Source of the DNA: Saprospiraceae bacterium
GTDB lineage: Bacteria > Bacteroidota > Bacteroidia > Chitinophagales > Saprospiraceae
Assembly (NCBI GenBank): GCA_016787345.1
Contig: JAEUUU010000057.1
Coordinates: 1-46,297 of the forward strand
Length of the DNA stretch: 46,297 bases
Direction of reading: 5' to 3'
Shown: positions 2 through 41,272 of the stretch, in pieces
How positions within the stretch are numbered: position 1 is the stretch's first letter
How the letters are laid out: every line of letters begins with the position of its first letter
Position numbers and translations under genes: made by a program
The notes under the pieces: model-generated
The model's input: the letters and a program-made list of their open reading frames with translations, nothing else
Told to the model about the DNA's origin: nothing
The model's database searches: none

Positions 2-3000
2 CTTCGCTTTTGCTTGTTTCTTTTATTGCCCCTGACAAATTCGCTGAGCGCTCAAACGCTCATCGACCCCTTCGGCGACGGCGGTTTTGACAACGGCCCC
101 GATTTTGCTTCCAACGGCTGGACGGTCGTCAATACACCCGGATCGCCCAACGAATGGAAAGTCATGTTCAACTTCTTTCTGGGCACGGTAGCGGGTATCA
201 CCAAGGATGGCGGCACAACCATTGTGTACGACACGACCAAGCCGACGATGGTGCATTTTTACCGCGACGTCACTTTCCCCCAAGGTGTTCCCAGTTTTAC
301 CCTGTCGTTCTCCGGCTTCGTCGGAGGTGGCGGCGCCAACTGGGACGAGGTGCTGGTCAGCCTTGCGCCGATCAGTTATACCCCGGTTGCCGGCACGACG
401 GAAACGCAAAGCACACTTCCGGCGCCGGCCATCCATCTGGGCCGTTTCCAGAATATCAGCACCACACAAACGATCAATATCCCGAGTGATCTGGTGGGCA
501 ACTGCCTGAACAACTCCAAAAGAAGGCTGATTTTTACCTGGAAAAACGGTTTCCGCCGTTCGACCCCGAGCTTTGTCGGCATCCGCGACATCGAACTGAA
601 AGGGAATCCGCTGGCGATCAGTCACCCCGCCGACCAGTGCGAGGCGGGCAATAACATCACCTACACGGTCAGCTATACGCCCGGCCCGGGCGAAAAAGCG
701 GTATATCGGAGCTCGCCGACCAATTACATGCTCAATTACACCGTATTCCCCTTGTTTGGGGTATTGCCGCCGCCTTTCCCGCAGACGCCCAATACGGGTA
801 CTTTTCTGGCTGCCAACGCCCCTCCCGGCGAGTATGAGGTGTTGTATTCCGTGACCACGCCGGGCTGCGTTTTTGAAGTGTTTGACACCATCGTGATCAA
901 GGATATACCGACCGCCGATCTCGAAGACCGCTTTCTCGATTGCCTCGATCCGGGTGAAGTGATCGACCTGGACATCATGCTCAACGAAGACGGCGAAACG
1001 ACGCCGGGTGGTACCTGGTCGGTTGCCGGCGCGACGCTCACCAACGGACAGGAACTAACGGTACCCGCTACGAGCAATTGCTATAGTGTGACGTACTCTG
1101 TCGACAATGAATGCGGCCCGCCGGCAACCGTAACCAAAAAACTGCTGGTCTTGCTGGGCTCCGATCCGCTTTTTACCATCAACGGCTCAACGGCGGATAT
1201 TCTGGATTGCCAGAATACATCGTCGAATCTGACCTACAATATTCAGCGCACCAGCAACGGCGACAACCCGCGCTGGACACTTCTGAAAGGAGAGCAGGTA
1301 ATCAGCAACAGCCTGACGGCCAGCGGCGGTACCGTGACGATACCCCCGCCGGGTGAAAACGAATCGGTGTGTTACACCATTTGCCTTGATGAAGACGGTG
1401 CTTCGTCCGATTGTTCGCCGGGTATTCTGCCCGACGACTACGATCCCTGCGTGACGAGATTTTGCCTGTCGATCATAGTGTACAACGACGGCAACTGCGA
1501 CAATGGGTCGATTACATCCAACATCTTCCCCAGCGAGTGCGGCCCCAATCTGTTCAACCCAACTTACGATATCTGCGTCTCCAAGCCCTCGCCGACCCTG
1601 GTGTTCTCCTGTATTTTTATCAAGAAAAAAATTCCGTTCAAAATACTCAATGCGCGGCTGGAAACGGATCAGTGCGCCTTGTTCTGCGACAGCACGGAGT
1701 TTACGATTCGTTACCGGGCCGACAACCTGTTTAACCAGATACCGGGTTTCAACGTCAAACTCCGCAGCCTGGATCCGTCGCTGAACGCGCTTTGCAAAAT
1801 CATCAACTTCTGCATCTGCGTACCCGATATCGTGTCCTACCGGCCACTGAAGTCGCTGGCCGGCTGGTGCGACGTATCGCTGGCAACCCTGGTGAGCGAG
1901 GCCGTCGAGCGTTACGCGGGTTCGCGGGCCGGCTCGGGCGGTCTGGTTGTGGCGGATACCGACGGCGATGGCAACTTTGACAACCTGATCGCCGATTACC
2001 GGCAGGTGCCCTGGCCGGTGTCGGGCAACAACTACATCACGGGCGTTGTGCCCAATAACATGGATAAAAAAGGCGGCATCATTACCGTCCGGCACGTAAC
2101 AGGCTGGCCTTTCCGCGCCGATTATACCTGCGGCGTGCCGACCAGCGGCTATTTCAGCCTGCTCGACGCCTTAAAGCCGTTTATTGAAAAAATCCCGATT
2201 GCCGGCCCGGTCATCAACAGCATTCTGACCACCCTGAAGTGCGATATTCCGCTCGTATTCAGCGACACCAAGGATTTGCGCATTCCGGTGATCAACTCCA
2301 GCTTGCCCGAGTTTAAAAACTGCCCGCCCACGGGTTATGTCTTTACCGAAAATTCGAGCTGCACAACGGCCGCCAACTGGTCGATACCGGTGGTCGAAGA
2401 CGGTTGTTACGGCGGCGTATTGCCATATGTCGGCCGCCTGGATACCACGATCGTCAGTTATTTCAACGGCACGCCACCGCCCACGTTTGTCGTGAAAGAT
2501 TCCGGCTCGGGTCTGTATCAAACCCAGGGCCCTATTGTCGGCTCGGTGCTTCCGCCCGGCGTGTACCCGGTGACCTATTCGGCGTATTCCTGCCGGGGCG
2601 TACGCTCGGATTGCTCTTTCAACATCACCGTCACCTCGGGCGAGCCTCAACTGGTTTGCCCGGAGGACGTCGTTATCCCCAACGACGTCGATCAGTGCTC
2701 GGCCGTCGTAATGGGCCTGACGCCCCGGGGCGGATTGGGATGCGCTACGGTGCTCAATTATCAGATCACGTTTCCGCTAAGCTCCGGCCTGGCGCCGGTG
2801 GGCACTTCGACGGATTACAACAGCAACACGCTCGGCACCATCAACGACGTAAGCGGCCGTACCTTCCCGGTAGGCACCTCGCAGGTCACCTATATCCTGA
2901 AGGTCGATCTGAACGGCGACGGCGATGCTGACGACCAGGATGAAACGCAGAGCTGCACATTTTCCGTAACAGTGCTCGACGTGCAAAGACCGCACGCCGT

Positions 3001-6000
3001 TTGTATCGACCGCGAAATCAAACTGGATCAAACCGGTAATGCCACGATCTATGCTACAGACCAGGGCGGCGGCTCCATCTTCATGGACGGCGGCAGTACC
3101 GACAACTGCGATGCCGATCCGCTGATTGAAATTCAGAAACCCGGTCAGCCGTACAGCGCCTCCCAGTCGTACAACTGCGTCGACGTAGGCGACAACCTGC
3201 TCAACCTGCGTATTTTCGACGATGCCGGCAATTACAGTACCTGCATTGCCCGGATCAAGGTGATCGACTACCTGGACGGCATCCAAATCAACCTGAACCT
3301 GCCCGAACTCTGCCTGGAGGCCAACAATCCCTCCCAGCTGGATTTCGCCAATTACCTGACCATTACGATGCCGAACGGCGAATCGGTCAACCACAACAAC
3401 ATTTCCACGCACCCCTACCTCAGCGGTTCGCAGGGCTATTTCTTTATCCAGTCCTTCCTGCCTGATTCCACTTCCACCACCGATCCGGGCTCGATCTCCT
3501 ACGACGGGGTGTATACGCCCGGTACCGGCCACGGCTTTATTACGTTCTCCTACCTGCTCTTCGCGCCCGGCTTCGTGCCTTCGCCCGACAGCCTGCCGCC
3601 GTACTTCGGCTGCCACAAAATCATCAATGTCAACTTCGAGTTGCGCCAGCCGCTTGAAATGGGCTCGCCCGAATGCGAGTGCCTCGACGGCGAAGAGCGC
3701 ATCGTCGACCTCGGCGTAGTGACCGGCGGCCTTGAGCCTTACCGTATCCAGTATACCGGGGTGCGCCTTGACGTCGACGGCGACGGTACGGCCGACGACT
3801 ACGACGGCGAATATACTTACGACGTCATTCACGGCCACGAGATCGGCGATGCGCAGGAAGACCTCGGCGAACTGCGCGTGGTATACACTATCCCGGTCTG
3901 GTCCTTTACCGTCGTCGACGCCCGCGGTTGCGAAATTTTCCGCTCCGGCTCCTGCGACAACGACGACTTGCTCGTCGGCCCGGGAATCACCTGTCCGCCT
4001 TCCAATTATACCCTGACCACGGAAGAATGGCTGTGCGAAAGCCAGTATAGCTGGACGCACCCGCTGCCCACCGACAATTGCGGCGTTACACTCTACGACT
4101 ACCGGGTTCAAAATCCGGACGGCACGGTGGAAGGGCCGTTCACCCTTGACGCGCTGCTGAATACAGCCCCCAATGCCCCGCTGCCGCAGTTCTTTACGGC
4201 GACGTACGAGTTTCAGCAAGGGCTTTCCACGATCACCTATTACGCCGAAGATGCGCAGGGCAATTTTATCAATTGTTCGTTTGAGGTGAATGTGACCGAC
4301 GACGACCCGCCGCATTTTCTCAACTGCAACGAACCACCCGTTATTCAAAATGCCGAATCGGGCCACTGCGACGCTTACGTCACTTTTGCCCAGCCGCTGG
4401 TGACCGACAACTGCGACGTACCGGTTCCAATCACCAAAATTGACAATACCGGCCTCAACTCGGGCAGCCGCTTCCCGGTAGGCACTACTATTTTGTACTG
4501 GGAAACCGTCGACGTCACGGGTAATAAAGACACCTGCCAGGTAAAGATTATTGTCAATGATTACTGGCAAGACCCGATTTTAAGCTGCCCGGCCAATGTG
4601 GTGAAAAACAACGATCCCTGGCTTTGCGGCGCGGTAGTCGACAATATCGCCCCCGCCGTCAGCGGCCCCTGTAAAGACAACTACGGCGTGACCTATACGA
4701 TCTACGCCGACGCGGCGCTCACGCAGGTGAAAGACTGCGGTGTGACCAATGCCAGCGGAGAATTTTTCGACACGGGCGACAGTTGGGTGAAATACACCGT
4801 TTCCAACCAACCCTTGCTGCTCATCACCGAAGTCGGGCAGTCGGGTGGGGTAGACCGCCTCGAAATCACCAACCTCGGTCCGGCCGACATCGACATTTCC
4901 TGTCTTGAAATCCGGCGTGTTTCCGGCAACGCCGCCGCCAACCAGACCATCGGTCCGGTGAGTTTGCTGCCCTCGCTGGCGCCCAGCATGCTGAATGTAG
5001 GGGCCACCCGCGTATTCGATTTCAGTTTCAATGCGCCTGCCAACCTGCCCGCCTGCTACACCATCTCCTACATGGGTACCGTGTTTGATCAGGTGTCGAC
5101 CAATGGTTATGCGGGTTGCGCCGGTTTCAGCGGCGTATTGAACGGCGGCGACGTCATCCGCAAATGCGAAGACGATACCAATACGGCCGCCGACTGGGTA
5201 TTGGCTGAAAACTGCTACCCGCTGACCTTCGGCGCCGTCAACCCCGATCTGGAAGTGATGCCGGACAATGGTACCCAAACTTCCCTGCAGTCGATCGAAC
5301 CCAATAAGGTCAGTTGTACCTTCAAGATAACGGTAAAAGATGCCGAGAATCCGTTCTGCGGCAAATTGTCGGCGCCAACGATTTACAATGGCGCGGGCAT
5401 CCCGAACATCAGCGCCGCTACCTGCAACCGGTCCACAATTACCATCCCGGCCGGCAACTGTATCATCGGCGACATCGTGTTCAATCGAACCGGCACCGCC
5501 ACGCCCGCCAATTCGATCATGACCCTGATCAGCCCGAAAGGCATCAAAGTGGTGTTGACGGAAATCCCGGATGACTCTTTGAGCACCTTGTTCGGGCAAA
5601 AAGCCGAAGGCAACTGGATTCTCGACGTGGTTCCCTTGCCCGGCCAAAACCCGACTGTGACCGGTTGGTCGCTGACGATCCGTTGCATTGCGCCCTTCGA
5701 TCTGCCCGATCAGGTGTTGAACAATGCCCCCGGACAATGCGGTCAGAACTTCACCTGGATACACCCGCTGCTGGTCGACAACTGCTTCCAGGGTACGATC
5801 ACGGTGACGTACACCAGCGCGGATGCCGATTGTGTACCTGCAAGCGGCCCAATACTGGGTATCGGCGGATACAGCACGACGCAATTCTTCTGCGTGGGTA
5901 CGACCAAGGTCATTTACACGCTTAAGGACGCCGCCGGCAATACCGCGCAATGCGATTTTGACGTGACGGTAAAAGACGTCGAACAACCGCAACTCAGCTG

Positions 6001-11601: not shown

Positions 11602-12783
11602 ATGTTGAGTCAACGCCAGCTTTTTCTGCGCCACCTTGCCCAAACCTCCCCGGCGCCCCTTGCCCTGGAGATTGAGCGGGCCGAAGCTTGTTTTCTCATT
11701 GATCGTGACGGCCGTCGTTACCTCGACCTGATTGCAGGGATCGGCGTGAGCGTGCTGGGGCACCGGCACCCGCGGGTACAGGCTGCTGTGGAACAACAAT
11801 TGAACTGCTATTGGCACACGCTGGTATACGGTGAATTCGTGCTTTCGCCGCAGGTGCAACTAGCCTCCTTACTTGCCGATCAATTGCCGGGACTCGATTC
11901 GGTCTATCTTGTCAATTCCGGAACCGAAGCCACCGAAGGCGCTATGAAACTGGCCAAACGCGCCACGGGCCGACCGGAGATCATCGCCTGTAGGCGTGCC
12001 TATCACGGCAGTACGCAGGGGGCGGCCAGTTTGATGGACCCGACTGATTTTACCCGTGCCTACCAGCCGCTTTTGCCCGGTATACGGCATATCAATTTTA
12101 ATGATGAGGCCGATCTGGCATTCATATCCGAACGCACCGCGGCCGTTATTGTGGAAACTGTGCAAGCAGAATCCGGCATTTATTCGCCTCGGCCCGGGTG
12201 GCTGCAGGCCTTGCGTCAACGTTGCACGGAAACAGGCACCCTGCTTGTTCTGGATGAAATACAGGCCGGATGCGGCCGCACGGGCTCACTGTTTGCATTT
12301 GAACCGTATGGTATTGTGCCCGATGTTTTGCTTTTGGCCAAAGGGTTCGGCGGCGGCATGCCGATCGGTGCGTTTATTGCCCGCCGGGAACTTATGCAGG
12401 TATTATCGCACGACCCGCCGTTGGGGCATATCACCACTTTCGGAGGGCACCCGGTGTGCGCTGCCGCGGCATTGGCAACCTTGCAAGAATTGCTCGAATC
12501 GGATCTGATCGCGCGGGTGCCGGAGAAGGAAGCGCTGTTTCGTTCGCTCCTGGTACATCCTGCCATCCGCGAAATACGCAGTGCGGGACTTTGGCTGGCC
12601 GTCGAATTCGACACGGCCGAACAAGTGCAACGGGTTATCCGGTATGCTTTGGCACACGGCGTTATTACCGATTGGTTTTTGTTCAATGACAGAAGTTTGC
12701 GGATCGCGCCGCCGCTGACGATTGCGGAAGAAGAGATCAGAATGGCTTGCCGCGTTTTGCTGGACGCCTGTAGCGCACTGTAG
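11602..12783 (+). CDS. Class III (acetylornithine/ornithine-type) PLP aminotransferase
   Basis: 393 aa, normal length for the acetylornithine/4-aminobutyrate aminotransferase family. NSGTEATEGAMKLAKR (PLP-phosphate region), LVLDEIQAGCGRTG (conserved Asp) and LLLAKGFGGGMPIG with Schiff-base Lys247 are all visible, so it should be an active PLP transaminase; the substrate cannot be assigned. No arginine-biosynthesis gene is adjacent. A weak promoter-like TACTTTCG lies at 11590-11597, just before the ATG, implying a very short leader. The C-terminus (...DACSAL) and the TAG stop are encoded by the edge of the REP cluster: TGTAGCGCACTGTAG reads Cys-Ser-Ala-Leu-stop. Confidence 0.9.
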   Translation: MLSQRQLFLRHLAQTSPAPLALEIERAEACFLIDRDGRRYLDLIAGIGVSVLGHRHPRVQAAVEQQLNCYWHTLVYGEFVLSPQVQLASLLADQLPGLDSVYLVNSGTEATEGAMKLAKRATGRPEIIACRRAYHGSTQGAASLMDPTDFTRAYQPLLPGIRHINFNDEADLAFISERTAAVIVETVQAESGIYSPRPGWLQALRQRCTETGTLLVLDEIQAGCGRTGSLFAFEPYGIVPDVLLLAKGFGGGMPIGAFIARRELMQVLSHDPPLGHITTFGGHPVCAAAALATLQELLESDLIARVPEKEALFRSLLVHPAIREIRSAGLWLAVEFDTAEQVQRVIRYALAHGVITDWFLFNDRSLRIAPPLTIAEEEIRMACRVLLDACSAL

Positions 12784-13107
12784 CGCCGACTGTAGCGCCG
12801 ACCTCCAGGTCGGCGAAGTTGAGGGAAGAAATGCACCGCGATTATCCTGAGTAACTTGGACGGTATACCGCGCAAGAACCTCTCGTGGCCTTGGCTTATA
12901 ATCGCGGGCTATTGCCGCTCTCAGACTCGCCGACCTGGAGGTCGGCGCTACAGTCGGCGAAGTTGAGGGAAGAAATGCACCGCGATTATCCTGAATGCTT
13001 GAGACGGGATACTGCGCAAGTATTTATCGTGGCCTTGGCTTATAATCGCGGGCTATTGCCGCTCTCAGACTCGCCGACCTGGAGGTCGGCGCTACAGTCG
13101 GCGCTAC
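12780..13107. repeat. REP/BIME-like cluster A (two units) carrying both flanking stop codons
   Basis: Forward REP: GTAG 12792-12795 plus palindrome CGCCGACCTCCAGGTCGGCG 12796-12815. Reverse REPs: palindromes 12928-12947 and 13072-13091, each followed by CTAC, exactly 144 bp apart. Extra half-REPs give outer GTAG/CTAC copies at 12780-12783 and 13104-13107; these contain the TAG stops of the aminotransferase and the DUF2851 gene. Each ~100-bp core folds back on itself (CCGCGATTAT ... ATAATCGCGG). The core runs opposite to those of clusters B and C. The second unit lacks a full forward REP. Nothing else fills this 320-bp gap. Confidence 0.9.
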
Positions 13108-14369
13108 AGCGCGCAACTGAACACCGCACATTCCAGACAACGTTTCTGCTCGCAATACTGCGTTTTTAACTGCAACAACGCCTGACTTTGAAAAGCATCC
13201 CTGGCTGCGACGCCCAGTTGTTGCCACCCGCGCAGTACGGCATTGTCTTCAGGAGGTAATTGCTCAAGCAGTTGCACGGCTTTTTCCTGATACGCCGGTT
13301 GGAAGCGGATTTTGCCATAATGAAATAAAAATGGCGCCACCGTATTGATGAGCAGCGAATGGATAAAACCGGCCCCGGGGTGATGCGTCTGTGTGGCGGA
13401 AGGTTTGTCGAACAAATAATGGGTATGCCAGTATTCACTCACCGGAACGGCAAACAACTGCTCCCAGTCGCGCAATTGCTGCCCATCCAGAATTTGCCCG
13501 AACAAAGCGCCCGACTGCTGCCACAAAGCGGCAAACTGCGCCAGCCGGAGCGTGGGGAAATTGCCCGGGCGCATCCGGAGAAATTTCCACATACTGACCT
13601 GCAGAGGGGTCAGACAGTATTTGCGGCGCAAATGTGCATACTCCCTGGCCAGGGCGCGCGGGTATTCGTCCTCAAATGAAGCCTCCAGAAACCCGGCCTG
13701 CCCGAATATCAAAGCCTCCAGTTGAAAAAGGCTGCCGCGCTGTCGCACCAGCACTGGCAAAGGCAGCGAACGCGCCAGGGCTTCGAAGGGGTCGGTATTG
13801 ACTATTAATCCGTAGTTGCGCGCCAGTGCATGGTAAAAAGCCGATTCCCAATGATGGCCGGTTTCTGCCAGCCAGGCGGCAACCTGCGCCGTTTTTTGTT
13901 CCAGACGCTCAACCAGCAAACGATCAAGCCAGTTGTTCAAAACGATAGAAGGAACCTGGGAAACAAACCAGGCGCAGGGAATCCAGGCGCGTTCGTGTTC
14001 GAGGCGGAGGTAGTGTTCGAGCAATTTGGGAGGGATACGACCATGCAGACTAAGACAGGGGAGCGATTCGCCGCTGGAACGGCGGATGACCTGGTCCGGC
14101 TCAAAAACGACATGCAACACCACATTGTCGTACGCCCGGTCGGTGTCGTGGCGGTGCGCCAGCCATTCGGAGGCGCGTACGTGGATTTCCACGGCGCCGG
14201 CCCACAGTGTTTCATTCAGCCGGATACGCGCATTCAGAAAATCGGGGCCAGCATGCTCGTTGGGCTCGCCGGGATGTAGAATTTCAAGGTATTGGCCGTC
14301 GGTCGTGCGCAGATTTTGGCCGTCGAAACGCCGCCAGCGCCACAGGTAATGGAGAAATTTTTCGTGCAT
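13104..14369 (-). CDS. DUF2851 family protein
   Basis: A 421-aa soluble protein of the DUF2851 family, common in Bacteroidota and of unknown function. Recognisable stretches are the N-terminus MHEKFLHYLWRWRRFD, then LHPGEPNEHAGPDFLNARI and WAGAVEIHVRASEW. The ATG at 14369 was chosen because the family begins with this Leu-Trp/Phe motif; the frame runs back to a TTG at 14420, but that extension is not family-like. No signal peptide or membrane segment. The last codons (TGC GCG CTG TAG; Cys-Ala-Leu-stop) overlap the edge of REP cluster A. Convergent with the aminotransferase and divergent from the Asp-box T9SS gene. Confidence 0.85.
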   Translation of the reverse strand: MHEKFLHYLWRWRRFDGQNLRTTDGQYLEILHPGEPNEHAGPDFLNARIRLNETLWAGAVEIHVRASEWLAHRHDTDRAYDNVVLHVVFEPDQVIRRSSGESLPCLSLHGRIPPKLLEHYLRLEHERAWIPCAWFVSQVPSIVLNNWLDRLLVERLEQKTAQVAAWLAETGHHWESAFYHALARNYGLIVNTDPFEALARSLPLPVLVRQRGSLFQLEALIFGQAGFLEASFEDEYPRALAREYAHLRRKYCLTPLQVSMWKFLRMRPGNFPTLRLAQFAALWQQSGALFGQILDGQQLRDWEQLFAVPVSEYWHTHYLFDKPSATQTHHPGAGFIHSLLINTVAPFLFHYGKIRFQPAYQEKAVQLLEQLPPEDNAVLRGWQQLGVAARDAFQSQALLQLKTQYCEQKRCLECAVFSCAL

Positions 14370-14536
14370 AGCGGGAGCATTTTTTTCAAAGTTCGCCGCT
14401 GCCGGGCCGCCTGCTCCCAAGGCTTGAAAATTTATTTCAAAAAATGCACTGCTTGAAGATGGTTTTGCTTAATTTTTATTTCTAAAATTAATTCAATATT
14501 AATTGTTGATTTTTTAAAAAGGCAATTTGTCAAAAT

Positions 14537-14544
14537 TAGTTTTG
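14537..14544 (+). promoter_or_regulatory. Candidate -7 box (TAGTTTTG) upstream of the Asp-box T9SS gene
   Basis: Matches TAnnTTTG inside the AT-rich 250-bp divergent intergenic region. No clear -33 TTTG sits at the usual distance, so this is tentative. Confidence 0.35.
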
Positions 14545-14620
14545 TTTTTTATGCAACTGGCGCAAGCGGAAAAATCAAGAAAATTTTCACCCATTTTATT
14601 CATATTCAACTCAGATTGCA

Positions 14621-16021
14621 ATGAAGAAAATTGCCTTTACCCTCAGTCTCGTGTTCTTGTTAAACTCCGCTTTTTCCCAACAATGGGTTCCCGTTTCAAT
14701 CAACACCGCGCCCCCCAATTTCGACATGCTGGACATATCGGTCGTCAGCGAAAATGTCGTGTGGGTGGTGGCCGATTCCATTCATCAAAACTCATTTACC
14801 GGGCCAAACAATATTCCAATGGTGCTGCGCACGGTCGACGGCGGCAACAACTGGGACGTTTTCCGTGTGGAGGAAGCCATCGGCCGGTTTGTCTGGTCAA
14901 TTCAGGGATTTGATGAAAATACGGCGATTTTTACCACCAACCAGTTTCTGGCCTCCGATACGCGGCCCATTTTCAAAACAACCGATGGCGGGCAAAGTTG
15001 GATGCAGATCACACCGCCTGCCGCCTCCGGGGGCTTGCTCATCCATTTTTTCGACGCCATGAACGGCGTGGTAAACAACCGCCAGGGTACGTCGACCACT
15101 ACCGACGGCGGTAATACCTGGACGCAGGTGACCTCTCCCGCGGCCCCGGTATTTGCTGCCAACGAATTCAATATCCTCAATTATACGTGCAACTTTTCCG
15201 CCCAGGCGGGCGACCGGGTATGGATAGGTACCAGCAAGGGTCGCATTTATCGCACGCTCGACAGGGGCTACAACTGGACCATGAAACAGGTGGGTACTGC
15301 GAACGATTGTATCATGAGTATCGCCTTTACGGACACGCTCCACGGCGTAGCCAGTTCTATTGGTACCTATTCGCCGAGCACGGGCCTGCTAAACTATTAC
15401 TTTGAATCCAAACTTTTTTACACCAGCGACGGCGGCGATACCTGGACGCCCGTCGCCGACGTCCCGATCGGCAGGGTGACAACCCTGGAAGCCGTACCGG
15501 GCGCGCCGGGGCATTTTTTCGGCGGTTCTTTTATCGAGCAGTTCAGCGGAAATGCCAGTACCAGTATCTCGCTCAACTCCAATTACCTGGCGCCCGATGC
15601 CTGGGAAAGCACCTCGGCCGATTCCTTCCGTTTGCAAGGCGCCGAATTCCTCAGCCCAACCCTGGGGTACGCAATTGGCTGGTCGGCTCGTGCATCCGAA
15701 GAGGTGATTATCAACGGCAATACGTTCGCCAACAACTACATCCTGAAATGGACGGGCAACGTGGTGCCAGCCCAGGATTTGAAAGACCCTGTTCAGGAAG
15801 TTCGGGTGTTCCCCAATCCGGTATCCGATTGGCTGACGATTCAACTGCCCGATCCGGCTTCGGCGGCGTTCGTCCGCTTGTCCGACTGGAGCGGCAAAGT
15901 CATTTTTGAAGATGAAATGGCCGAGCCTCGATTGTTGATGAAGAGCCTCCCAGCCGGGGCTTACTGGCTACAGGTGCAATCCGGAGAAAATGTGACGCTG
16001 CATAAAGTCATCCGACAATAA
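14621..16021 (+). CDS. Secreted Asp-box (BNR/YCF48-like) propeller protein with T9SS sorting domain
   Basis: 466 aa. Signal peptide MKKIAFTLSLVFLLNSAFSQ is followed by five Asp-box repeats (TVDGGNNWDVF, TTDGGQSWMQI, TTDGGNTWTQV, TLDRGYNWTMK, TSDGGDTWTPV) spread over residues ~65-285, typical of a sialidase/YCF48-type beta-propeller. The last ~75 residues form a T9SS type A sorting domain (VRVFPNPVSDWLTIQL ... GAYWLQVQSGENVTLHKVI). It is predicted to be exported and anchored or released at the cell surface. No catalytic residues could be assigned, so enzymatic sialidase activity should not be assumed. Stop TAA, followed by a hairpin terminator at 16087. Confidence 0.9.
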   Translation: MKKIAFTLSLVFLLNSAFSQQWVPVSINTAPPNFDMLDISVVSENVVWVVADSIHQNSFTGPNNIPMVLRTVDGGNNWDVFRVEEAIGRFVWSIQGFDENTAIFTTNQFLASDTRPIFKTTDGGQSWMQITPPAASGGLLIHFFDAMNGVVNNRQGTSTTTDGGNTWTQVTSPAAPVFAANEFNILNYTCNFSAQAGDRVWIGTSKGRIYRTLDRGYNWTMKQVGTANDCIMSIAFTDTLHGVASSIGTYSPSTGLLNYYFESKLFYTSDGGDTWTPVADVPIGRVTTLEAVPGAPGHFFGGSFIEQFSGNASTSISLNSNYLAPDAWESTSADSFRLQGAEFLSPTLGYAIGWSARASEEVIINGNTFANNYILKWTGNVVPAQDLKDPVQEVRVFPNPVSDWLTIQLPDPASAAFVRLSDWSGKVIFEDEMAEPRLLMKSLPAGAYWLQVQSGENVTLHKVIRQ

Positions 16022-16086
16022 GCCCCGACGCCCACAAGGGCGCGGGAGGCTGATTAACAAGTCGGCCCAATAAATTTTACATCATG

Positions 16087-16135
16087 TGGCAAGACGCGCC
16101 GCGGACTTCCAGCCCGGTGCGTTTTGCCATTTTTA
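16087..16135 (+). terminator. Intrinsic terminator after the Asp-box T9SS gene
   Basis: Stem TGGCAAGACGC (16087-16097) / GCGTTTTGCCA (16119-16129), 11 bp with one G-T pair, followed by a T run (16130-16134). It lies 65 bp after the upstream stop and before the IMPACT promoter, separating the two transcripts. Confidence 0.65.
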
Positions 16136-16192
16136 TATCAACCAACTCGTTTACTTGTGCGCTCCGCGACGTACGAGACCCGAATGACGCTG

Positions 16193-16200
16193 TACCTTTG
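16193..16200 (+). promoter_or_regulatory. -7 box TACCTTTG of the IMPACT/pabB operon
   Basis: Exact TAnnTTTG match ending 7 bp before the ATG at 16208. This implies a leaderless or nearly leaderless mRNA and rules out the upstream in-frame start at 16124. No good -33 box is visible. Confidence 0.55.
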
Positions 16201-16207
16201 CGGGGTA

Positions 16208-16861
16208 ATGGCAGAAATGACCGATGTTTTTCGCACCCTTTCGGGGTCTTCGACCGGTGAGTTTAAAGACCGGGGCAGCAAATTCATTGCCTACGCCTGG
16301 CCGGTCCGCGACGAAGCCGAAGCGCTCGAACATCTCGAGCAGCTGCGCAAGGAGCATTTTAAAGCGCGTCACCACTGTTTTGCCTGGCGCATCGGGTTGT
16401 CCGGCGACCGGTTCCGCGCCAACGACGATGGCGAACCTTCCGGTACAGCCGGTCGGCCTATTCTCGGACAGATCGATTCGTTCGGCCTTACCGACATTGT
16501 CGTCATTGTCGTCCGGTATTTCGGCGGCACCCTTCTCGGGGCCTCCGGGCTGATCCACGCCTACCGGGAGGCCGCCGCCGAGGCGCTGCGCGCCGCGTTG
16601 ATCGAAGAAAAACTGGTGCTGGATCATTTCCGGCTGCAATTCGACTATGCACTGATGCCGGATGTGATGAATGCCGTCAAAAAATTCGACCTCTCCGTAC
16701 TTCATCAGGAGTTTGGCGACGACGGCGTGCTCGAAATCGGTATCCGGCAAAGCGAAACGGCCGATAAATTGCTCAAAATGAAGGCGTCTGTATGGAAAGT
16801 CAGCACCGACGAGGCGGCTGGTCTCGACTGGCCGCCGGGAATGAAAGTTTCCGCTTTGTGA
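16208..16861 (+). CDS. IMPACT/YigZ family protein
   Basis: 217 aa, the usual length for the YigZ/IMPACT family. UPF0029 core motifs are present: GEFKDRGSKFIAYAWPV, KARHHCFAWRIG, DGEPSGTAGRPILG, DIVVIVVRYFGGTLLGASG and LIHAYREAAAEAL. The C-terminal ~70 residues correspond to the DUF1949 domain. Bacterial members are poorly characterised; eukaryotic IMPACT regulates GCN2 signalling. The start at 16208 (MAEMTDVFRTL) was chosen from the promoter at 16193-16200 and the family N-terminus; ATG 16217 is an alternative. Its stop overlaps the pabB start by one base (TGATG), so the two genes are translationally coupled. Confidence 0.88.
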   Translation: MAEMTDVFRTLSGSSTGEFKDRGSKFIAYAWPVRDEAEALEHLEQLRKEHFKARHHCFAWRIGLSGDRFRANDDGEPSGTAGRPILGQIDSFGLTDIVVIVVRYFGGTLLGASGLIHAYREAAAEALRAALIEEKLVLDHFRLQFDYALMPDVMNAVKKFDLSVLHQEFGDDGVLEIGIRQSETADKLLKMKASVWKVSTDEAAGLDWPPGMKVSAL

Positions 16862-18144
16862 TGCGCCAGACTGCCGTTTTCCCCGTCGATGATGTCATTG
16901 CCCTGAAGCGCCGCCTGCTGGCCTGGGCCGATACGCACCCGGTTGCGCTCTACCTCGACAGCAATGGCCACCACGAGGCCAATTCTTCCTGGGAGTGTCT
17001 GGTGGCGACCGGCGCCGCCGCGTCGATCGAATGTGCCGCCGGAGGGGCTTTTGCTGCGCTGCGCGAATTTTGGACCGCACGGCGCGACTGGTGTTTCGGT
17101 TTTTTGGGTTACGACCTGAAAAACGAGTTGGAAAATCTCGGCTCGCGGCATCCCGACCCCCTGGGCTTTCCGGATTTGTATTTTTTCCAGCCCGACTGTG
17201 TCGTCGGTATTCGCCGGGGGCAACTGGAAATTTACAGTTTGACGCTGCCGCCGACTGCCGTGATGGAAGTGCTGGAGAGTCTTGTGCCGGATTCAGTTTC
17301 CAACAGGCAACAAGCGCCGCGGTTTGATGCCAGAATGCCGCGAGAACACTATCTGGATACCGTCGGGCATATCCGCCGGCACATTGTCGACGGCGATATT
17401 TACGAGATGAACCTCTGTCAGGAGTTTTTTGCGCGTCATGCCGAAATTGATCCGCAGACGGTTTTTGAACGGCTGAATGCATTGGCAAGGGCGCCGTTTT
17501 CTGCCTATTTGCGCTGTCTCGACCGCTATTTGCTGTGCGCAAGCCCGGAGCGTTTTTTGAAAAAAACGGGCGACAAACTGATTTCTCAACCCATCAAAGG
17601 CACCCGCCGGCGCGGCCAAACGCCCGAAGAGGATGCTCAAATCCGTGCCGACCTTTTTAACAGCGAAAAGGACCGCGCAGAGAACGTCATGATCGTCGAT
17701 CTGGTGCGCAACGATCTGGCGCGTCATTGTCGGCCCGGGTCGGTGCGTGTGGAAGAACTGTTCGGCATTTACACGTTCGAGACCGTACATCAAATGATTT
17801 CCACCGTCAGCGGAATACTCCGGCCCGAAGCCAGCGCTTTCGATGCCCTGCGCGACGCCTTTCCGATGGGCAGCATGACAGGCGCGCCGAAAGTGATGGC
17901 CATGGAACTCATCGAGCGCTACGAACACAGTCGGCGCGGCTTGTATTCCGGCGCTGTCGGCTACATCACGCCGGAGGGCGATTTTGATTTTAATGTGGTG
18001 ATTCGCAGTCTGTTGTACAATGCCGCTGACCGGTATTTGTCGGTGCAGGTCGGCGGTGCGATCGTATACGATTCCGTTCCGGAAGAGGAATACGAGGAGT
18101 GCCTGGTAAAAGCGGCCGCGATGCTGCGCTGTAGCACGCTGTAG
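16861..18144 (+). CDS. pabB: Aminodeoxychorismate synthase component I (chorismate-binding)
   Basis: 427 aa. Catalyses amination of chorismate to 4-amino-4-deoxychorismate for p-aminobenzoate and folate synthesis, normally with a PabA glutaminase, which is not in this window. The chorismate-binding domain fills the C-terminal half: ISQPIKGTRRRG with Lys246, DLFNSEKDRAENVMIVDLVRNDL, ELFGIYTFETVHQMISTV, MGSMTGAPKVMAME and SGAVGYITPEGDFDFNVVIR. The Lys in PIKGT is the PabB nucleophile; anthranilate synthase (TrpE) has Ala there, which supports PabB over TrpE. The start at 16861 overlaps the IMPACT stop (TGATG). The last codons CGC TGT AGC ACG CTG TAG come from the edge of REP cluster B. Confidence 0.9.
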   Translation: MRQTAVFPVDDVIALKRRLLAWADTHPVALYLDSNGHHEANSSWECLVATGAAASIECAAGGAFAALREFWTARRDWCFGFLGYDLKNELENLGSRHPDPLGFPDLYFFQPDCVVGIRRGQLEIYSLTLPPTAVMEVLESLVPDSVSNRQQAPRFDARMPREHYLDTVGHIRRHIVDGDIYEMNLCQEFFARHAEIDPQTVFERLNALARAPFSAYLRCLDRYLLCASPERFLKKTGDKLISQPIKGTRRRGQTPEEDAQIRADLFNSEKDRAENVMIVDLVRNDLARHCRPGSVRVEELFGIYTFETVHQMISTVSGILRPEASAFDALRDAFPMGSMTGAPKVMAMELIERYEHSRRGLYSGAVGYITPEGDFDFNVVIRSLLYNAADRYLSVQVGGAIVYDSVPEEEYEECLVKAAAMLRCSTL

Positions 18145-18600
18145 CGCCGACCTCCAGGTCGGCGAGTCTGAGAGCGGCAATAACCCGCGATATAAGCCAA
18201 TGCCACGATAGGCACTTGCGCAGAATACCGCCCCAAACACTCAGGATAATTGCGGAGCATTTCTGCTCTCAGACTCGCCGACCTGGAGGTCGGCGCTACA
18301 GGCGGCGCCGCTGAGAGCGGCAATAACCCGCGATCATAAGCCAATGCTACAATAGGCACCTGTGTAGAATACCGTCCCAAACACTCAGGATAATCGCGGA
18401 GCATTTCTTCTCTCAAAATCGCCGACCTGGAGGTCGGCGCTACAGACGGCGATGTTGAGAGCAGTAACACCCCGCGATCATAAGCCAATGCTACAATAGG
18501 CACTTGCGCAGAATACCGCCCCAAACACTCAGGATAATCGCGGAGCATTTCTGCTCTCAGACTCGCCGACCTGGAGGTCGGCGCTACGGGTCGGCGCTAC
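18131..18600. repeat. REP/BIME-like cluster B (three units) carrying both flanking stop codons
   Basis: Forward REP: GTAG 18141-18144 (its TAG is the pabB stop) plus palindrome 18145-18164. Reverse REPs: palindromes 18276-18295, 18420-18439 and 18564-18583, each followed by CTAC, with a period of exactly 144 bp. An additional half-REP gives CTAC 18597-18600, which holds the stop of the minus-strand T9SS gene. Cores fold back: in the third unit TGAGAGCAG 18456-18464 pairs with CTGCTCTCA 18551-18559, and CCGCGAT 18472-18478 pairs with ATCGCGG 18537-18543. An outer GTAG at 18131-18134 is read through as TGT-AGC. This fills the 450-bp convergent gap. Confidence 0.92.
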
Positions 18601-21368
18601 AGCGCCAGTTTGCCGCGCCCTACCAGACCACCCGGCGTTTCGACCACGAACGTATAAATCCCCGAAGCCAGATCGCCCCGTTGCAAAACAAAACCGAGCG
18701 AATCGCCCGGTATCGTGCGCACCAGTTGCCCTTGCGGGTTGAACAACCGCAGCGTCAGATCGGAGCCGCCCGTCCAGCCGCTGAGATCAATCCAGGCCAT
18801 ATCGCTTACCGGGTTGGGGAATACACGAAGTAAAACGCCGGGCCGGGCCGGCTCCCAGGTATCCAGGCCTGGCACAAATTGCGTACCGATGCGGTGCCAT
18901 ACGGTATTGGTAATCACCGGCGCATTGAAGTCGAAATAAATGGCCGCCGAGTTTTCTATCAGGGTTTCGAGGGGCAGGTCGGGTTGCTGGTCGATGGTGA
19001 ACTTGACAAACCCCTGCGAACCTTCGAGGTTGGTCGTACTGTCGGGAAGCAGGATGCCGTCAAAGCGGAATTCCAGCACGCCATTGCCTGTAAGTTGCCA
19101 GGTAAAGGCATGGCTGGCCGAGATGGAGCGAATACCGGGCGCATGCAGAAATGAAGAAAGCGTATCCCGCACGACAACGTTGAACGCCGTATCCGTACCG
19201 GTATTCTGGAAACGAATGGTGTACGTCAGTGGGATGTTTCGTTCGATCAAATGCTGATCTGCGTAACCAATGGGCACGGCTTGTTTGTCGTTGGGGTCGA
19301 AAGCCCCGATGTTGGCCTGGCAGTCGCGGTCGGCGCCGTCGGTGTCGACGAATTCGGGAAACATGTTCCAGAATCCCGGCTGCACCATTCCGTTGCAACC
19401 CTCGATTGCAGCCGTGGGCGAGAAAAACGGCGATTCGCCCGGCGCCTGACCCGCGTACATCCGGTAGGTGCTGCCATCGGCCGGACAGGTAATTACCGTT
19501 TGTTGCTGGTTGGGCAACTGGAACTGCCCTTCCCGCATAACGATCAGGTCTTCAATCACCACGAATTCTGCCGGACTGACCATCGGCGCGTCACCGATGT
19601 TTTTTATGGTAAAAGCAACGGAGTCGGTCTGGCATTCGGCTTCCACCGTGATAACAGGAAATGCAATCGGCGTGGAGGGGCATGGGTTGGCAAATTCGAT
19701 CGAAGCGGAAGAGCAATGGGTTTGGCCCAGTTCCGCATCGCAATTGACCAAAACAGTCACACTGAACGTGTAGGTTTCCAGTGGCCCTACATCGCCCGCG
19801 CCAAACGAATAGGAATTGTCGCCCAGATCGGTAAACGGAATGGATGCCCCCTGAAATTCGAGCCAAGGATCAAGAATCAGGGTGACCAAGGCGCCCTCGG
19901 CAGTGGCGCTGCCGTCGTTGGTGTAGGAAATCAAATAGGTGCTTTCGAAACAACGGCGCAAAAAAGCGGCGCTCAGATCAATACTCAGCGAGGGGCAACC
20001 CAGGGCTGAAACGGCCGAATTGAAACCCACGGTGTCAAAAGTTCCGTTCAGGCTGACCGTCACGGAATCGTCGCATATTTCCCAAAATGCCGACGGCGGC
20101 TTGACGCGCATCAGATACTCGCCGCTGCCGACATTGATGGAATAATTGCCCTCGGCGTCGGTCGTGGCGTAATAGGTATCCTCGTCTTGTTGCGCCGTCA
20201 GAATAAAGCCGGCATGAGTGGTGTCGAGTCCAGGCGAGAAGACACAGTCGTGGTCCAGGTCGGTAAATACATTACCCTGAATCAGGTTGGTAAACGTGTT
20301 GCCGCTGCCGTCGATCCGAAACACCAGCGGTGTATAGCCCGAGCCGGTGAACCCGCGACCGATTCCCGCGGCGCCCCCGTCGGGCATCGGCCAGAAGGCA
20401 TAGGCGCCTTCGAGGTTTTCCGGGCGGTCGATGACTTTTTGCCAGATTATCGTGCCGTTCCATTCCCGCTTGCTGATGTAAAAATTGCCGTCGCCGCTGC
20501 TGCTGACGAATACCAGCAGTTTGCCGTCGGCCGAACGCCGCAAACCTGCCGCGCTGCCGAGGGCGATGGTGCCGGTTACGGCGCCGTTTTGCGGATTGAT
20601 CAGCGCAATGTTGTTGGTCGCGGCAGCCGCCATCAGGTTGTCGTTTTGCAGTGCCAGCGAACCAAAACCATAGATCAGACCCGGCTGGGTGTACACATTG
20701 GCATACACGAAACTGCCGTCGGCCGTGAACTTTCCCAGCACCGGCGCATAGGGGAAGTCCTGCACCCCTGTAAGGTAAAAGTTACCCTGGCTGTCGGAAG
20801 CGATATCGAGAAAGCTGCGTATGGAAGCGCCGTAGGTGTCGAAATTGTAACTTTTTTGCCAAAGGACAACGCCGTTCAGGTTGGTTTTGGTCACGTGTAT
20901 CAACCCGTATTCGCCGGCCTGGTAGGCTGTAAGGTAGCCGCCCTCCGTGGCGATAAGCAGGGGCGGGCGGTATAAACCGGTATAAATGCCCGGATAGCTG
21001 ACTGTCCATACCGTCTGCAAATTGGCATCGGTCTCCGTGAGTACGGTACTGCTGGTCGCCGAAGAAAACGTGCAGAACAACAGGTGCCCATTGTCGAGCG
21101 GCAGCATCGACGGCTGGAAAGCGCTGAGCGCCGCGCTTTGGTCGAACAGGGTATCAGGTGAGCCGCCAGGGTGAATTTTCAGAAATAAATGTGGCGAAAC
21201 GCCCCAGTATTCCTTATCGGCGCTCATCAGGAAGCCGCCGTCGGGAGTGGGTACCAGGTCGTAGACCAGATCCAGCGAAGTAAGTTCGGGGTAAGAGCGC
21301 TCCCAGCCTTGGCTCTGAGCCGCGGCCGCGGTAAGGCAGAAAAACAATAGGTTGAATAATTTTTTCAT
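18597..21368 (-). CDS. Secreted T9SS protein with DUF7619-type conserved-repeat region
   Basis: 923 aa. Signal peptide MKKLFNLLFFCLTAAAAQSQ, then ~330 residues with propeller-like repeats (PTPDGGFLMSADK, IATEGGYLTAYQAG), a carboxypeptidase-regulatory-like segment (GNVFTDLDHDCVFSPGLDTT) near residue 370, a DUF11-like segment (LISYTNDGSATAEGALVTL), and a region that I assign to DUF7619 (TYTIRFQNTGTDTAFNVVVR, AAIYFDFNAPVITNTVWH) at ~700-830. It ends in a T9SS sorting domain (LRVFPNPVSDMAWIDLSG ... IYTFVVETPGGLVGRGKLAL). The ATG at 21368 precedes a clean signal peptide; the longer frame to 21407 does not. Divergent from the helical protein at 21490, an arrangement repeated at 42135/45247. The stop TAG lies inside REP cluster B. 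Confidence 0.9.
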   Translation of the reverse strand: MKKLFNLLFFCLTAAAAQSQGWERSYPELTSLDLVYDLVPTPDGGFLMSADKEYWGVSPHLFLKIHPGGSPDTLFDQSAALSAFQPSMLPLDNGHLLFCTFSSATSSTVLTETDANLQTVWTVSYPGIYTGLYRPPLLIATEGGYLTAYQAGEYGLIHVTKTNLNGVVLWQKSYNFDTYGASIRSFLDIASDSQGNFYLTGVQDFPYAPVLGKFTADGSFVYANVYTQPGLIYGFGSLALQNDNLMAAAATNNIALINPQNGAVTGTIALGSAAGLRRSADGKLLVFVSSSGDGNFYISKREWNGTIIWQKVIDRPENLEGAYAFWPMPDGGAAGIGRGFTGSGYTPLVFRIDGSGNTFTNLIQGNVFTDLDHDCVFSPGLDTTHAGFILTAQQDEDTYYATTDAEGNYSINVGSGEYLMRVKPPSAFWEICDDSVTVSLNGTFDTVGFNSAVSALGCPSLSIDLSAAFLRRCFESTYLISYTNDGSATAEGALVTLILDPWLEFQGASIPFTDLGDNSYSFGAGDVGPLETYTFSVTVLVNCDAELGQTHCSSASIEFANPCPSTPIAFPVITVEAECQTDSVAFTIKNIGDAPMVSPAEFVVIEDLIVMREGQFQLPNQQQTVITCPADGSTYRMYAGQAPGESPFFSPTAAIEGCNGMVQPGFWNMFPEFVDTDGADRDCQANIGAFDPNDKQAVPIGYADQHLIERNIPLTYTIRFQNTGTDTAFNVVVRDTLSSFLHAPGIRSISASHAFTWQLTGNGVLEFRFDGILLPDSTTNLEGSQGFVKFTIDQQPDLPLETLIENSAAIYFDFNAPVITNTVWHRIGTQFVPGLDTWEPARPGVLLRVFPNPVSDMAWIDLSGWTGGSDLTLRLFNPQGQLVRTIPGDSLGFVLQRGDLASGIYTFVVETPGGLVGRGKLAL

Positions 21369-21386
21369 GTCATGTGGATTTACGCA

Positions 21387-21418
21387 CAAAAATGCCCTTC
21401 CGCACAAGAGCGATCAAA
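21387..21418 (-). promoter_or_regulatory. Candidate promoter of the 18597-21368 T9SS gene
   Basis: On the minus strand TTTG (21415-21418), a 20-nt spacer and CATTTTTG (21387-21394), one mismatch from TAnnTTTG, lie just upstream of the ATG at 21368. Confidence 0.45.
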
Positions 21419-21428
21419 CCCAAATTTT

Positions 21429-21436
21429 TACTTTTG
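21429..21436 (+). promoter_or_regulatory. Candidate -7 box TACTTTTG for the helical protein gene
   Basis: Exact TAnnTTTG match 54 bp before the GTG start at 21490, in the divergent intergenic region. No clear -33 box. Confidence 0.4.
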
Positions 21437-21489
21437 TGTAAAGGTATTTATTGTAAATAATTGATTTTCAATTTTTAATTGACCGTTTT

Positions 21490-22872
21490 GTGCAAAACAG
21501 CCAGGTAGTTCAACTGCTCAAAACCCTCTCGTCGGCTGAAAAAAAATCCTTTCTACGTTTCCTGCAATCCAGCTGGCGCGGCGGCAAACCCGAACATCAG
21601 CGTTTGGCGGAATACCTGCTCCTGTCCGGGACCGGTTCGCTCCGCGAAAAAAAGATGGCCTTCTCCCATGTTTTTGGCGCCGATACGGCTTACGACGACG
21701 CCCGTCTGCGCAAGGTGATGGAGCAGCTCCTGCGCATGCTCGAACATTTTCTTGTCCTCGAACAACGGGAAACGGAAGCATTCGACTTTCGCCTTCGCCT
21801 GGCAAGCCTGCTCGCCGAACGCAAACAGGACCGGCTCTGGCGCCGCGTGACGGACGCCCCCTTGCCCTTCCCGGAGCATGAGGCTGACTGGACGGCCGAG
21901 GTGTTCGAACAAGCCGCCCGTTGGTTTCGGCATCGGTACGATCGCCATAGCGCCGCGCGCCGCGAACACGATGCCGCCCTGTATGCACGCGTGACGCGTT
22001 ATGAAACCATCGGCCTCGTGGCCCGGAGACTGCGCAACGCCTGTATTTTTTTGTCTAACAGCAAGGAAAAAGGCAGTTTGCCGACCGACCCTTTGCTCGA
22101 ATGGGCCGAAACCAAAGCCTCGGAATACGCCGATTTACCTTTACTCAACACCTTGTTTGCCGGTCTGCGCGCCTTGCAAAACCCCGACGACCCGGCTCAT
22201 TTTATCTCCTTTCGCGACGGCCTGCTGACGCAACACAATTGCTTCACGACTTCCGAACGCCGCGATCTGTTGCTGGTGGCCATCAACTTTTGCAGTAAAC
22301 GCTATAACGACGGCGATCCGGCCTGGCTCGATTCGCAGCTCGACCTTTATGAATACGGGCTCAGAGAAGGTCTTTTATTGGAAAACAATTGGGTGACCGG
22401 TTACACTTTTACCAACATCGCCACACTGGCACTGATCGGGCGACGCTACGAGCGCCTGGCGCAACTCCTGCGGGATTACCGCGATAAAATCACGCCCCGC
22501 GACCGGGCGGGGGCGGCCGCATTCAATGAAGCCCGGCTTTACCATGCCCTGCGGCAATACCGCCCGGCTTTGGCCCTGCTCCAGCAAAATGTATTTGACG
22601 ATCTGCTGCTCAACCTTTCTGCCAAAACCGTACAGGCCAAGTGCTTTTACGAACTGGAAGAATACGATCTGCTCGATACGCATCTGGAAGCGCTTCGGAA
22701 GTTCATTCGCCGCCACAAGGAAGTCGGTTACTACGGCGAGCGCTACCTCAATTTTGTTGCCATACTCCGCCGACTGGCGCGTATGGCGCCGGCCGCGCGG
22801 GAAAATTTGCGGCAGGAAATTGCGGATATGCAGGTGCTGGCGGAGAAAGCCTGGCTGCTCGAGCGACTGTAG
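21490..22872 (+). CDS. Uncharacterised helical cytosolic protein, copy 1
   Basis: 460 aa, GTG start, no signal peptide or membrane segment. Function not recognised. It is Leu/Arg-rich and predicted largely alpha-helical, TPR-like in feel. The N-terminus (LLKTLSSAEKKSFLRFLQSS) fits a pattern often seen in hypothetical proteins of Bacteroidota. The middle section RRDLLLVAINFCSKRYNDGD matches VRDLYLSAINFCLRRHNRGE in the protein starting at 45247, and LREGLLLENN matches LEKGLLFENG, so the two are paralogues. Both sit divergently beside a DUF7619-type T9SS protein. The C-terminus (LLERL) and TAG stop lie at the edge of REP cluster C. Confidence 0.8.
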   Translation: MQNSQVVQLLKTLSSAEKKSFLRFLQSSWRGGKPEHQRLAEYLLLSGTGSLREKKMAFSHVFGADTAYDDARLRKVMEQLLRMLEHFLVLEQRETEAFDFRLRLASLLAERKQDRLWRRVTDAPLPFPEHEADWTAEVFEQAARWFRHRYDRHSAARREHDAALYARVTRYETIGLVARRLRNACIFLSNSKEKGSLPTDPLLEWAETKASEYADLPLLNTLFAGLRALQNPDDPAHFISFRDGLLTQHNCFTTSERRDLLLVAINFCSKRYNDGDPAWLDSQLDLYEYGLREGLLLENNWVTGYTFTNIATLALIGRRYERLAQLLRDYRDKITPRDRAGAAAFNEARLYHALRQYRPALALLQQNVFDDLLLNLSAKTVQAKCFYELEEYDLLDTHLEALRKFIRRHKEVGYYGERYLNFVAILRRLARMAPAARENLRQEIADMQVLAEKAWLLERL

Positions 22873-23189
22873 CGCTGTAGCGCCGACCTCCAGGTCGGCG
22901 ATGTTGAGAGCAGTAATACACCGCGATTAACAGCCAATGCCACGATAGGTAACAGAGCAGGATACTGTCCCAATCATTCAGGATGATCGCGGTGCGTTTC
23001 TTCTCTCAGACTCGCCGACCTGTAGCGCCGACCTCCAGGTCGGCGACGTTGAGAGCAGCAACAACCCGCGATTATAAGCCAATGCCACAATAGGTACTTG
23101 CGCGGTATATCGTCCCAATCATTCAGGATGATCGTGGTACTCCTCTTCCCTCAGACTCGCCGACCTGGAGGTCGGCGCTACAGCGCTAC
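22869..23189. repeat. REP/BIME-like cluster C (two units) carrying both flanking stop codons
   Basis: Forward REPs: GTAG 22877-22880 plus palindrome 22881-22900, and GTAG 23022-23025 plus palindrome 23026-23045, 145 bp apart. A half reverse REP (CGCCGACC) lies at 23013-23020, abutting the second forward REP. Reverse REP: palindrome 23158-23177 plus CTAC 23178-23181. Outer GTAG 22869-22872 and CTAC 23186-23189 hold the stops of the helical protein and nadA. Both outer ends have the same 8-nt duplication (GTAGCGCT). Core orientation is as in cluster B. No other feature fills this 313-bp gap. Confidence 0.9.
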
Positions 23190-41250: not shown

Positions 41251-41272
41251 CTAGTGCCGGATGCGGCACTAG
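41251..41272. terminator. Short hairpin shared by two convergent genes
   Basis: A perfect 9-bp stem CTAGTGCCG / CGGCACTAG with loop GATG, 3 bp after the NlpE-like stop. The stop codon of the convergent DCC gene (TAG, 41271-41269) is inside the stem. Bidirectional terminator role is likely. Confidence 0.6.

Follow-up and report, generated by a model that had tools for sequence, protein, structure and literature searches.

GTAG-tagged REP repeats provide the TAG stop codons of many genes in a Saprospiraceae genome

We examined a 46,297-nt stretch of DNA (the window) from Saprospiraceae bacterium (GCA_016787345.1, contig JAEUUU010000057.1; the genome is called G000 below), in which three gaps, each between convergent genes, are filled by clusters of inverted repeats made of the tetranucleotide GTAG and a 20-bp hairpin, CGCCGACCTCCAGGTCGGCG, and identified as repetitive extragenic palindromes (REPs). 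The window contains the hairpin at 10 sites (20 matches over both strands with up to 3 mismatches, shuffle mean 0.01), in inverted pairs and arrays with a direct period of 144-145 nt, and the cluster edges carry ladders, in which GTAG is accompanied by stubs, i.e., REP 5' stubs that mostly end in CT. In the first cluster, the left ladder (12770..12795, plus strand) comprises stubs GTAGCGCACT and GTAGCGCCGACT and then GTAG, and gives the TAG at 12781-12783 to a class-III aminotransferase gene; three hairpins (12796-12815, 12928-12947, and 13072-13091) make up the body (12796..13091, with a 144-nt direct repeat), and the right ladder (13092..13107, minus strand), GTAG plus stub GTAGCGCCGACT, gives the TAG at 13106-13104 to a DUF2851 gene. 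The second cluster begins with stub GTAGCACGCT and GTAG (18131..18144, plus strand), which provide the TAG at 18142-18144 of a chorismate-binding (PabB-like) gene, continues with four hairpins in 18145..18583 (18145-18164, 18276-18295, 18420-18439, and 18564-18583), and ends with GTAG and stub GTAGCGCCGACCC (18584..18600, minus strand), the source of the TAG at 18599-18597 of a gene for a large protein with a DUF7619 domain. In the third, stub GTAGCGCT and GTAG (22869..22880, plus strand) give the TAG at 22870-22872 to the gene for a 460-aa protein without a Pfam match, three hairpins follow in 22881..23177 (22881-22900, 23026-23045, and 23158-23177), and GTAG with stub GTAGCGCT (23178..23189, minus strand) gives the TAG at 23188-23186 to nadA.

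All six flanking genes, a small sample by themselves, thus stop at CTG-TAG, and the three clusters, their coordinates, and the six element-derived stops are as an earlier note on this DNA had claimed. That note also held TAG to be rare in the rest of the window, with one case among 22 other complete genes. We called 26 complete genes, the six and 20 others, and the single case (41269, a weak call) stands, with 20 rather than 22 genes as its background. The TAG of this weakly supported gene (41269-41952) is contained in a small hairpin at 41251-41272, CTAGTGCCGGATGCGGCACTAG, which is unlike the REP. At the end of the window, the last 627 bases match the flank of a REP in another genome of the genus, G025 (locus L039), which suggests that the assembly breaks at such a repeat.

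In the whole genome (5.28 Mb, 191 contigs, 94% complete), we found 112 exact hairpins, 48 forward and 64 reverse, and all of them are covered by the window and 31 stretches fetched around hairpins. GTAG stands directly 5' of 110 of the 112, and exact and near copies (up to 3 mismatches) form 45 clusters, none inside a called gene. The family therefore shows the features by which REPs are recognized: a GT(A/G)G tetranucleotide with a short palindrome, and a high copy number, mostly extragenic and in both orientations. Gene calling relied on an ad hoc hexamer model, which missed the transposase gene described below and of which a few weak calls may be wrong, and the locus pairs C10/C65 and C11/C177 look duplicated, so that the counts are not fully independent. 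By these calls, 16 clusters lie between convergent, 22 between tandem, and 2 between divergent genes, and 5 have one side missing; when the transposase gene is added by hand, the two clusters of contig C151 change from tandem to one convergent and one divergent. The convergent setting seen at all three junctions in the window is accordingly not a rule for the genome (16 of 40 classified clusters): relative to the remaining gene pairs of the stretches analyzed, gaps between convergent genes are enriched (p 4e-4) and divergent gaps depleted (p 0.005), yet tandem gaps are commoner, and the p values are approximate, since one gap can contain more than one cluster. Of 56 called 3' ends that face a cluster, 44 lie within 60 nt, all of them 0-29 nt from the outermost hairpin and none running into it, whereas 9 of 29 facing 5' ends are within 60 nt. 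At least one such adjacent 3' end is present at 35 of the 45 clusters.

The stop codons of these 44 adjacent ends are 32 TAG, 8 TAA, and 4 TGA. TAG is used by 24 of 187 other complete genes (Fisher p 1e-14), and one of these 24, in locus L086 (6017-6466), ends CTG-TAG on a variant hairpin. All 32 adjacent TAGs coincide with a ladder GTAG, with the ladder as defined in our analysis, and 28 of them with the outermost one; with the transposase gene included, TAG is found at 33 of 45 adjacent ends. At 7 of the 16 convergent clusters, both genes receive their TAG in this way. Some of the TAA stops look like ladder TAGs that have changed to TAA, judging from sequences such as CTG-TAA-CGCCGCC. The genome-wide count of stop overlap that the earlier note called for thus bears out its proposal that the element supplies the TAG, and we conclude that the repeats belong to a true REP/RAYT family and terminate many genes of this genome.

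Comparison with relatives indicates what these genes have lost. Protein searches of 42 genomes of the genus with four window genes gave 30 loci each; leaving out G000 itself, two element-bearing G025 loci (PabB and NadA), and two ends cut by the stretch or contig, we obtained 112 homologue ends that lack this element: 28 from the 460-aa gene (three close homologues at 61-66% and the rest at roughly 28-34%, one of these in G025), 29 from the aminotransferase (including two, in G007 and G009, that carry a GTAA repeat), 27 from PabB, and 28 from NadA. None of the 112 ends in CTG-TAG. All 28 NadA orthologues without the element extend 2-6 codons past a shared Ala-Gly-Leu, and the NadA of G000 is shortened accordingly; the Leu before its stop is conserved, with a CTN codon in 14 of the 28 orthologues. 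The Cys-Ser-x-Leu tails of the aminotransferase (CSAL) and PabB (CSTL) are encoded by the ladder, so the remodeling of coding ends that had been proposed from the window is seen in these genes. In G008 and G024, the convergent orthologues of the aminotransferase and DUF2851 genes share 9 bp at their ends (in two more loci they are about 1 kb apart); a repeat inserted into shared bases of this kind would have to terminate both genes. At the other two junctions, the fetched flanks, many of them short, did not contain the partner gene. G025 represents a sister species (97-98% protein identity) that shares the element and CTG-TAG at PabB and NadA. Among 100 relatives searched, the 26-mer occurs only in G000 and G025, and in a public genome set only in one metagenome-assembled genome, Saprospiraceae bacterium SJ871 (30 stretches). 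No clean polymorphic (empty) site was found between G000 and G025: 31 of 32 G025 clusters have a long flank that matches a fetched G000 region, for which reason the REP sites look shared between the two species, and the remaining cluster has an 86-nt match only.

The genome contains four Y1_Tnp matches, and one of them is a RAYT (REP-associated tyrosine transposase) gene at C151:51343-51588, located between clusters of the same REP at 50778-51266 and 52000-52330, as had been expected for a REP family. Its product, P0001, scores 99.9 bits with the hidden Markov model REP_Tyr_transpos of NCBIfam (NF047646, cut-off 80) and 32.9 with Y1_Tnp (cut-off 23). It carries the HUH motif NHVH, the motif WQ, and the tyrosine motif YILNNP, and its only PDB match at E values up to 0.01 is TnpA_REP (4er8). 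The gene itself stops at CAG-TAG within a REP ladder. Three further Y1_Tnp genes lie at C113:65568-65738, C137:74007, and C72:7597; the C113 gene ends with TGA, and no copy of the REP of this genome directly follows it. In two other genomes of the genus (G010 and G041; loci L280 and L272), the reading frame of the RAYT gene continues through a REP-like hairpin (CCCGGAACTC...), which codes for Pro-Glu-Leu, a motif also present near the C-terminus of several related RAYTs. This read-through hairpin is a possible link between the origin of the REP and the 3' end of the RAYT gene.

GTAG precedes the hairpin at 84 of 88 cluster edges, and at 64 of these 84, one to three further GTAG stubs lie outside it. 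Most stubs (76 of 85) are 8-13 nt long, and seven of 17-23 nt may be due to chance. The dinucleotide CT stands before the inner GTAG at 79 and before the outermost GTAG at 61 of the 84 edges, and it precedes 59 of 85 stub GTAGs, compared with 30 of 1475 GTAGs outside the clusters. CT is also the dinucleotide cut by TnpA_REP of E. coli and S. maltophilia, according to the available portion of PMC8266576. Selection of the ladders as stops in several frames was considered and rejected: they are as common at edges away from adjacent 3' ends (mean 1.84 GTAG, 44 edges) as at edges facing them (2.0, 44 edges; p 0.52), and selection is therefore not needed to explain them.

Other RAYT families of the genus use different tags. 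In G009, the hairpin CGCCAACTTTCAGTTGGCG is present in 44 copies within one mismatch and is tagged with GTAA, outside the letter of the GT(A/G)G rule, at 41 of 48 copies when two mismatches are allowed; this genome has its own RAYT, 59% identical to P0001, between GTAA arrays. Eleven called 3' ends lie within 60 nt of a G009 cluster, and eight of them, including that of the RAYT gene, end on the tag (seven TAA and one TAG). Further copies are found in divergent gaps, at a distance from 3' ends, or, in one case, inside a called gene. At one site that is empty in the near relative G007, the G007 gene ends GAG-GCG-GGG-TAG, whereas the G009 gene ends GAG-GTG-TAA-hairpin. In two G009 arrays (L222 3352-3858 and L226 2977-3082), the last codons of the host gene are duplicated together with the GTAA REP, in 61-bp and 87-bp units, respectively. 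A repeat of some 105 bp that bears no relation to the REP is dispersed in G007, at L216 about 2958-3062 and, by DNA search, at about 40 places. We read 15 RAYT loci, taken from a set of 40 fetched loci together with the G000 and G009 loci, and treat the outcome as a lead: tags vary within the genus (GTAA in G037, GTAT in G017 and G021, GTAC in G030), and the tag is the RAYT stop in G000, G009, G037, and one mixed-tag G010 locus, but not in six GTAT or GTAC loci, where the stop comes before the tag, nor in five loci with other or unclear tags.

We consider it probable that REP repeats, arranged as bacterial interspersed mosaic elements, were spread by a RAYT encoded elsewhere in the genome, and that their tags became stop codons and displaced native gene ends. 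A unit whose outer end reads CT-GTAG-hairpin, heading away from the flanking gene, would come to occupy the final few codons of a gene, or the touching or overlapping ends of a convergent pair. The tag would turn into a stop in the frame that reads CTG-TAG, and the native stop would be displaced, as the last residues were in the tested genes. Of this account, the REP-flanked RAYT, the stops supplied by the element, the displaced C-termini of the tested genes, and the CT before most tags are observed directly. CTG-TAG itself may represent the join of a CT to the guide tag GTAG, which in one frame gives Leu-stop. The RAYT of C151 presumably moves this REP, CT would mark where it cuts and joins, by analogy with the characterized TnpA_REP enzymes, and selection may keep only those insertions that create a clean stop. 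Several observations weigh against this account. CTGTAG precedes 104 of the 112 hairpins, so that CT may belong invariably to the element and not be target sequence, and the GTAA family has no fixed dinucleotide before its tag; in G009, the TT that the guide rule would predict before GTAA was not seen, AA and CA being commonest. Twelve of the 44 adjacent ends use TAA or TGA, several of them plainly native, and 12 of the 56 3' ends that face a cluster are more than 60 nt away. Moreover, the DNA downstream of the G009 copy at the empty site has no match in G007, and hence this is not a simple insertion, and a recent insertion of the G000 family was not caught, gene ends having been compared with those of more distant relatives.

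The same observations can be read without any preference for stop codons: REPs may land anywhere near gene ends, with TAG used since an insertion into the end of a coding sequence would be tolerated only if it carried a stop. This is compatible with the explanation by RAYT-driven spread and differs from it in the source of specificity, and we give it somewhat less than an even chance. Ladders need not be selected as stops, given their equal frequency at edges not facing 3' ends, the RAYT stop precedes the tag in the six GTAT or GTAC loci, and G009 copies occupy divergent gaps and the inside of a gene. However, the placement of all 44 adjacent ends within 0-29 nt of a hairpin, with none entering it, looks tighter than free placement in gaps would give.

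It is also conceivable, though unlikely in our view, that the array is a cassette of stop plus bidirectional terminator, as the earlier note suggested, or of translation control, kept by selection for this function. As RNA, a single unit has a folding energy of -109 kcal/mol (z -13), the hairpin starts no more than 15 nt from the stop in 29 of 44 cases, a distance reported in the accessible text of PMC12306157 for lowered translation by E. coli REPs, and both the sites apparently shared between G000 and G025 and the bias toward convergent and away from divergent gaps would fit. By contrast, an intrinsic terminator has no consensus support in the three clusters, where a scan for a G+C-rich stem followed by a T run found no site (17 sites in the whole region versus 16.1 in shuffles), and no known RNA family was matched at Rfam gathering scores. 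That native genes already ended in CTG-TAG and the repeat targets this hexamer is very improbable. The conserved Leu of NadA and its CTN codons would agree with such a target, but the homologue ends without the element, the longer NadA orthologues, and the ladder-coded tails of the aminotransferase and PabB contradict it for the four genes compared.

It is worth noting that the central idea is already known: GTAG REPs often provide TAG stops through their termini, as Di Nocera 2013 states in the available part of the text (PMC3733652), and the supply of stops here is high. Judging from the accessible portions of that paper and of Nunvar 2010 (PMC2817692), the G000 family shares with GTAG REPs and REPtrons the GTAG plus palindrome, inverted pairs, arrays, location between tandem or convergent genes near 3' ends, and a REP-flanked RAYT gene. 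It differs in its host, a member of the Saprospiraceae (Bacteroidota), whereas the accessible text of PMC3733652 names Bacteroidetes once, for CGTC repeats, in the count of supplied stops given here (32 of 44) and its link to the displacement of native ends, and in the ladders of REP 5' stubs at the cluster edges. The system of E. coli has in common with it the GTAG guide, the HUH tyrosine transposase family, REPs near 3' ends, and, in the part of PMC8266576 available, the CT dinucleotide. Five 49-kb stretches of E. coli K-12 contain 44 REP matches near 21 annotated 3' ends, of which one (yafL, next to rayT) stops with TAG, while at the others TAA or TGA precedes the REP; the contrast with the 32 of 44 in G000 (p 1e-7) refers to a sample only, since the REP pattern and stretches were hand-chosen and a few very short, alternative-start, or cut coding sequences were omitted. 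The motifs of P0001 fit those listed for RAYT subclasses 2.4 and 2.7 in the available part of PMC6006769, where subclass 2.4 is described as abundant in Cyanobacteria and Bacteroidetes; assignment to 2.4 or 2.7 is a guess from these motifs. The GTAA, GTAT, and GTAC tags of relatives fall outside the GT(A/G)G definition as given in the accessible text of PMC3686654. In the open-licence literature, to the extent that its texts were available, we found no per-family stop count, stub ladders, or GTAA tags, and no paper with both "REP-associated tyrosine transposase" and "GTAA". What is added here are the ladders of mostly CT-ended stubs, the GTAA sister family with its ochre stops, and one empty-site comparison.

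A broader idea, which we offer tentatively and regard as doubtful, is that in this genus the RAYT guide tag decides whether repeats end genes. REPs with GTAG or GTAA (GTAR) might establish themselves within the ends of coding sequences, overlapping convergent ones included, where they would yield Leu-amber or xxG-ochre stops, whereas those with GTAT or GTAC could not and would stay behind native stops; CT-ended stub ladders would add stops in other frames, and the whole would act as a multi-frame stop trap for survival in gene-dense genomes. Overall, a tiny mobile repeat can rewrite many gene ends, including that of the conserved enzyme NadA, apparently because the recognition tag of its transposase doubles as a stop codon, and the sister RAYT families with different tags in this genus make the idea that the tag sets placement testable.

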